This document shows, piece after piece, positions 13,597 to 13,700 of a stretch of 25,200 bases of DNA. Every line of letters starts with the position of its first letter. The stretch's first letter is position 1. The stretch spans positions 1 to 25,200 of the forward strand of contig SHMQ01000037.1 of NCBI GenBank assembly GCA_008534395.1, in the 5' to 3' direction. Below the pieces are notes generated by a model that made no database searches, had not been told where the DNA came from, and saw only the letters and a program-made list of their open reading frames with translations. The position numbers and the translations under genes were made by a program. This DNA is from Candidatus Acidulodesulfobacterium acidiphilum (GTDB lineage: Bacteria; SZUA-79; Acidulodesulfobacterales; Acidulodesulfobacteraceae).

Positions 13597-13675
13597 AAAA
13601 ACAAAAACGCCGCAACTAAGGAGACAAAAACTTAACGAATGCTTTAAGTGGTTTAAGTCTCTTTAATTGCGGCGT
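13597..13675 (-). terminator. intrinsic terminator/attenuator in the nifH leader
   Basis: On the minus strand a 19-base arm (13657-13675) pairs with a 19-base arm (13607-13625) with only one A-C mismatch and one G-U pair; the base of the stem is ACGCCGCA/TGCGGCGT. It is followed at once by TTTTTGTTTTT. The loop holds a smaller ACTTAA/TTAAGT hairpin. The U-run ends about 37 bases before the nifH ATG and downstream of the predicted promoter, so transcripts would stop in the leader unless the hairpin is prevented from forming. Confidence 0.85.
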
Positions 13676-13700
13676 CATTGCCGCATGCGCTCATTTGCGC
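13668..13700 (-). promoter_or_regulatory. tandem hexaloop hairpins, probable ANTAR-protein RNA target
   Basis: On the minus strand, hairpin P1 is GCGC-AAATGA-GCGC (13687-13700), then one base, then hairpin P2, TGCGGC-AATGAC-GCCGCA (13668-13685, six perfect pairs). Both have six-base loops. The P2 loop fits the A1/G4 pattern I recall for ANTAR targets; in P1 the G is at position 5. The 3' half of P2 is the first eight bases of the terminator's 5' arm, so P2 and the terminator exclude each other. This is the known ANTAR antitermination layout, and a REC-ANTAR protein is encoded in this operon. Confidence 0.65.

Follow-up and report, generated by a model that had tools for sequence, protein, structure and literature searches.

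The leader of the nitrogenase operon of Candidatus Acidulodesulfobacterium acidiphilum contains two adjacent hairpins, P1 and P2, the second of which overlaps an intrinsic terminator placed before nifH. We consider this element to be, with a probability of roughly 0.88, a transcription attenuator through which an ANTAR protein controls the nitrogenase genes. This reading is based on the sequence, its conservation and covariation, the presence of a single such site in the genome, and the joint presence and joint loss of the element and an ANTAR gene. The DNA analysed, referred to below as the window, is a stretch of 25,200 nucleotides (contig SHMQ01000037.1).

Architecture of the nifH Leader

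The minus strand of the window carries nifH (12700–13560; Pfam Fer4_NifH, 1.5e-125), which is the first gene past the switch. It is followed by the genes for a nifB-like radical SAM protein, a methyltransferase and a ferredoxin and by nifD, nifK, nifE, nifN, and nifX (together 4337–12681), which are collinear in relatives. The SAM methyltransferase gene (11009–11785), located after the nifB-like gene inside the nif operon, was kept in all loci read. The nifI1 and nifI2 genes of the P-II family (2779–3611; Pfam and annotation) lie downstream of the gene for the ANTAR protein.

A sigma-54 promoter, TGGCATGAATATTGCA (13842–13827, minus strand), matches the −24/−12 consensus exactly and places the expected transcription start at ~13816. 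The 5' part of the leader, from this start to P1 (13816–13701, ~115 bases), is A/T-rich. The open reading frames listed across relatives revealed no conserved leader ORF, as the short ORFs vary from genome to genome. Then follow P1 (GCGC-AAATGA-GCGC, 13700–13687) and P2 (TGCGGC-AATGAC-GCCGCA, 13685–13668), the candidate antiterminator, both recognized from the sequence, the lineage alignment, and double changes in their stems. The intrinsic terminator, supported by sequence, fold, and covariation, has a 5' arm starting at 13675 and a 3' arm ending at 13607, and is followed by the U-run TTTTTGTTTTT (13607–13596), a Shine-Dalgarno site, and nifH from 13560. The 3' strand of P2 (GCCGCA) sits within the 5' arm of the terminator, so that P2 and the terminator compete for the same strand and only one of them can form. 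A preliminary description of this DNA had proposed an ANTAR-type layout at these positions with a strand shared in this way, and both the coordinates and the overlap were correct.

The predicted fold of the leader had an energy of −50.4 kcal/mol compared with −29.6 kcal/mol (sd 3.7) for the shuffled leaders (z −5.6), and none of the 200 shuffles folded as strongly. Taken separately, the terminator accounts for ~−31 kcal/mol and P1 together with P2 for ~−17.5 kcal/mol. A strict scan for the architecture, defined as P1, P2 with R1/G4, and an overlapping terminator with a T-run, was passed by 14 of the 15 real leaders having the switch and by none of 6000 dinucleotide shuffles of the leaders. In the fifteenth leader, the architecture was present with a bulged terminator (L049). 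Neither the window nor any of ten nifH loci contained a match to an Rfam family at the gathering score.

It should be noted that a Shine-Dalgarno-like GGAGGA is present at 13755–13750, ~50 nt 5' of P1, with a similar GGAG in several relatives. It is not accompanied by a conserved reading frame in the relatives and is perhaps an mRNA-stabilising site.

Conservation and Covariation of the Switch

Nitrogen-fixing Candidatus Acidulodesulfobacterales are known from the acid-mine literature (PMC6776010). Our lineage sample consisted of 30 genomes of one order, which in this sample equals the whole phylum. The switch was found before nifH in 15 of these genomes. The P1–P2 core of 38 nt was aligned in all 15 leaders with zero indels, both hairpins had hexanucleotide loops in every leader, and the T-run was kept in each of them. 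The sigma-54 promoter preceded nifH in the 15 leaders with the switch as well as in six out of six leaders lacking it.

The two loops differ in how closely they follow the known ANTAR target pattern. The P2 loop (AATGAC in the window) has G4 in 15/15 leaders, while position 1 is A in ten and G in five, in agreement with the A1/G4 rule. Its C6 is invariant, and in some leaders G1 and C6 could pair, leaving a tetraloop. The P1 loop has the consensus RADURN and departs from the rule with U at position 4 in all 15 leaders; G5 is present in 13, in which the A2 and G5 spacing is kept. The linker between P1 and P2 is ~0–2 nt in the 15 leaders, with fixed spacing. It thus falls short of the 5–12 nt of the Enterococcus faecalis eut linker, where shortening to 3 nt harmed induction (PMC3369931), and of the 2–25 nt accepted for actinobacterial ANTAR targets (PMC8164766).

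The stems changed in a compensatory manner. In P1 and P2, ~97% of the cells were paired (96.7%) and 4 of the 11 pairs showed double changes. The double-change cells numbered 11 compared with 3.2 in the shuffles, and 0/500 shuffles reached 11. In the terminator, 8 of the 18 pairs were changed on both sides, giving 21 cells versus 6.7 in the shuffles. These covariation values exceed all or nearly all of the 500 shuffles, which ignore relatedness, so the comparisons are not to be read as probabilities. The terminator changes together with the double changes of P1 and P2 mean that the shared strand changes with both of its partners. Indeed, the three strands vary in step: GCGGC/GCCGC occurs with GCGGCG, and ATGGC/GCCAT with ATGGCG.

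Thus, compensatory changes of the kind that the preliminary description had proposed to test for in relatives were present in P1, P2, and the terminator of the 15 aligned leaders. Its main reservation, the departure of the P1 loop from A1/G4, was real. Covariation of the P1 stem in the aligned leaders shows that this departure has been conserved throughout the lineage and does not reflect decay.

The REC-ANTAR Protein and Its Gene

As had been proposed, the operon encodes a REC-ANTAR protein (3656–4282, minus strand; Pfam Response_reg 5.8e-23, ANTAR 1.8e-17), the presumed antiterminator. Its gene sits between nifX and nifI1, and no second ANTAR protein was found in the genome (one match genome-wide). 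A contig scan with the ANTAR alignment yielded seven orthologues, below which mostly generic receivers were found.

The protein aligned over its full length with EutV (6wsh, 6e-29). The phospho-acceptor set of the receiver, D17, D18, D61, T88, and K115, was invariant in 14 orthologues, as in a REC-ANTAR regulator. By alignment with EutV, the residues contacting P2 were mostly kept (R142, K143, K147, K149, E160, M172, and N173). The EutV residue Y164, which stacks on G4, is replaced by His here and by Leu in one genome of the order (G028), and R175/R177 of EutV align with Gly/Pro. The Y164 to His replacement was considered as a possible counterpart of the altered P1 alone. This idea was rejected, as three ANTAR proteins from Geobacter-like genomes with nif genes also have His at this position. 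HisKA_2 kinases are the usual partner class of ANTAR regulators; no HisKA_2 kinase was detected in the order and no cognate kinase was found. These residue replacements and the missing kinase, like the U4 of P1 and the short linker, weigh against the ANTAR reading.

The ANTAR gene has its own sigma-54 promoter, TGGCATAAAAATTGCA (4310–4295, minus strand), 12 nt 5' of the ATG. This promoter was seen before the orthologues having a complete 5' end, with 12 nt to the ATG in most of them. With this conserved promoter, synthesis of the regulator does not depend on read-through of the switch that it would open, and the sequence indicates that ANTAR-nifI1-nifI2 can be expressed independently of the nifH attenuator. 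The divergent nifV (14184–15323) is preceded by a sigma-54-like promoter (14156–14171, plus strand) with one mismatch to the consensus and with spacing conserved in relatives; no attenuator was present after it. Therefore, the claim that the whole twelve-gene operon is governed by the switch was too strong given these separate promoters of the ANTAR gene and nifV, whereas the proposal of ANTAR antitermination of nif held in the light of covariation and co-occurrence with the ANTAR gene.

Both the ANTAR gene and nifV start ~12 nt after the −24/−12 element (4310–4282 and 14156–14184, respectively) with no Shine-Dalgarno sequence between, a spacing conserved in most relatives. Judging from this sequence arrangement, the two sigma-54 transcripts are probably leaderless.

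Joint Presence and Joint Loss of the Switch and the ANTAR Gene

The ANTAR gene was found in 13 of the 15 genomes with the switch, and in the other two (G009 and G021) the nif contig ends before the place of the gene. Contig ends also explain the two cases of an ANTAR gene without the switch (G014 and G019).

Genus g2 has neither part. P1, P2, and the terminator were absent from all six of its nifH leaders, each of which keeps the sigma-54 promoter, and the ANTAR protein was absent apart from one match in G005. This match was rejected as a true g2 gene: it lies on a 3-kb contig (L003, G005:C145) that shares 98.5% identity with the window and is regarded as a stray contig. Its occurrence in a genome of another genus is likely a binning error in the public genome.

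Three g2 loci were checked and contained nifH, the nifB-like gene, the methyltransferase and ferredoxin genes, nifD, K, E, N, and X, nifI1, and nifI2 in the same order. Only the ANTAR gene was missing, exactly between nifX and nifI1. With the gene in 13/15 genomes having the switch versus 0/6 lacking it, Fisher's test gave p = 0.0005, a value uncorrected for phylogeny. In the tree of NifH and NifB-like proteins, G028, which has both parts, was sister to all others (support 99), while the g2 clade (98) was nested as sister to the remaining carriers (97). The basal position of a genome having both parts and the nesting of g2 are most simply explained by a single joint loss of the switch and the ANTAR gene. 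By these sequence comparisons, the association of the switch with the ANTAR gene is strong, but it rests on few evolutionary events.

A Single Strong Site and the Alternative Explanations

A covariance model of the P1–P2 core (R1) was used for the genome scans. In the genome of the window, R1 detected one strong site, the nifH leader, with 57.7 bits, and all other matches were at or below 20 bits among the 150 of ~1080 candidates scored, a depth at which weak sites may be missed. These secondary matches were rejected as all weak, the best lying inside an ORF and the rest resembling coding sequence. Across the order, exactly one strong site was found in each of 15 genomes, always before nifH, and none in genus g2; the extra matches in G014 and G028 were weak and were discarded. 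Among 395 Desulfobacterota genomes, with few candidates per genome scored, R1 gave one weak match, a terminator-like hairpin without nif linkage that was likewise set aside.

These results bear on the best surviving alternative, in which the element is a fixed attenuator, an mRNA-stabilising or processing structure, or the end of a short leader sRNA, and the targets of the ANTAR protein lie elsewhere. Every GC hairpin followed by a U-run has the capacity to terminate or stabilise a transcript, but a fixed attenuator leaves unexplained P1, the hexaloops, the covariation of P2 with two partners, the fixed spacing, and the joint loss. Moreover, R1 found no other credible site for the sole ANTAR protein among the 150 of ~1080 candidates scored. 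We regard this explanation as improbable.

It is slightly less probable still that binding of the ANTAR protein to P1–P2 chiefly affects translation or RNA stability rather than termination, as for mycobacterial targets. Although such modes have been described for actinobacterial targets (PMC8164766), the element lies >90 nt from the nifH start and leaves the Shine-Dalgarno site unmasked, and in 15/15 leaders a strong terminator shares a strand with P2. Leader-peptide attenuation, with the ribosome position setting the fold, is highly improbable: positions 3–5 of the P1 loop (13694–13692 in the window) read ATG, TTG, or GTG in 13/15 leaders and begin a short frame that runs across P1 and P2, but this frame is not preceded by a Shine-Dalgarno sequence, lacks a start triplet in G026 and G028, and has neither a conserved stop position nor a run of regulatory codons, and RNA constraints alone account for the conservation.

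Comparison with Known ANTAR Systems

ANTAR control of nif is not new. Reportedly, Ueki and Lovley described in 2010 the GnfK/GnfR system of Geobacter sulfurreducens, in which a REC-ANTAR regulator antiterminates nif leaders under sigma-54 promoters, much as proposed here. The gnfR and gnfK genes are named as nitrogen-fixation regulator and sensor kinase, respectively (PMC7962754). For Pelobacter carbinolicus, ANTAR dual hairpins overlapping terminators were predicted in three nitrogenase transcription units (Ramesh et al. 2012, PMC3369931), compared with one unit here. The earlier remark that this is not a textbook mode of nif control is to be corrected in view of these two precedents. In contrast to Geobacter, the regulator gene described here lies inside the nif operon under its own sigma-54 promoter and has a single R1 target. 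In the Geobacter-like leaders inspected, attenuators occurred in tandem, and the P2 elements were accompanied by different P1 loops at a different spacing. The search of Ramesh et al. 2012 demanded A1 and G4 in both loops (PMC3369931), a filter that the P1 loop of our element fails.

The EutV/eut system of E. faecalis shares with the present one a REC-ANTAR protein, two hexaloop hairpins, and the 3' strand of P2 in the terminator arm. It differs in the linker length, the U4 of P1, the Y164 to His replacement, and the lack of a HisKA_2 kinase in the order studied here. The NasR/nasF and AmiR/ami leaders follow the shared logic of a terminator versus an ANTAR-bound hairpin (PMC3369931), but their sensor parts are a nitrate-sensing domain and the AmiC partner, and they control other operons. 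By analogy with these systems, the sequence suggests that the element functions like an ANTAR antiterminator, as a variant rather than a textbook member on account of the P1 U4 loop and the ~0–2 nt linker.

In the nifH leaders of Desulfobacterota, P2 with a terminator was found by relaxed rules in 6/89 leaders versus 1/1780 shuffles. Five of these six genomes were tested and all five had an ANTAR gene, compared with 33/80 overall (p ~0.01), which lends independent support to the ANTAR reading. One of the leaders (L262, genome G206) consists of a sigma-54 promoter, P1 gacatAACGAAgtgtc, P2 aaggcAGAGACgcctt, an overlapping terminator, and nifH, and this genome has two ANTAR genes, one of them on the nifH contig. 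Unlike those of the lineage described here, this leader shows the canonical A1/G4 in the loops of P1 and P2 alike, and its linker is 15 nt long.

Three loci, L229, L243, and L231 (G358, G376, and G300), had two tandem attenuators before nifH, both of which comprised a P2 with A1/G4 and a separate terminator, and their ANTAR genes were 7–17 kb away on the same contig. A common stretch like CATCAACGGAGATGCCGCC or CAATGGCGATGCCGCC, with no Rfam match, was seen 60–100 nt before nifH in L228, L229, L231, L236, and L243.

Proposed Mechanism

The following scheme includes protein binding, read-through, and the activation signal as steps that we infer. Sigma-54 polymerase would initiate at ~13816, and by default the nascent RNA would form the terminator (13675–13607), so that transcription would end before nifH. 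Under nitrogen shortage, sigma-54 would also drive synthesis of the REC-ANTAR protein from the promoter of its gene. The intact receiver suggests that this protein may be activated through phosphorylation by an unlinked kinase. An activated ANTAR dimer binds two loops and keeps P2 out of the terminator in the systems studied (PMC3369931, PMC8934654). Similarly, the activated REC-ANTAR protein would bind P1 and P2 and retain the 3' strand of P2, the terminator would be blocked, and the polymerase would continue through nifH to the downstream genes. Together, initiation and read-through would form a two-step feed-forward gate, while ANTAR-nifI1-nifI2 and nifV on the opposite strand would escape attenuation.

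More tentatively, and at somewhat less than even odds, the sequence features could describe a compact form of ANTAR control with one target. Here, abutting P1 and P2 with fixed spacing and a U4 (A2/G5) loop would be matched by altered protein contacts, and the dimer would read both hairpins as a rigid unit. The regulator would be translated from a separate sigma-54 transcript, probably leaderless, making a coherent feed-forward gate on nitrogenase.

Significance

The finding extends RNA-level control of nitrogen fixation from Geobacter-type bacteria to an uncultured lineage treated as its own phylum. The natural deletion in one genus is strong comparative evidence that the switch and the regulator work as a unit. 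In addition, the element is at odds with the rule accepted for ANTAR targets, namely A1/G4 in both loops and a linker of several nucleotides, and searches based on this rule would miss it.
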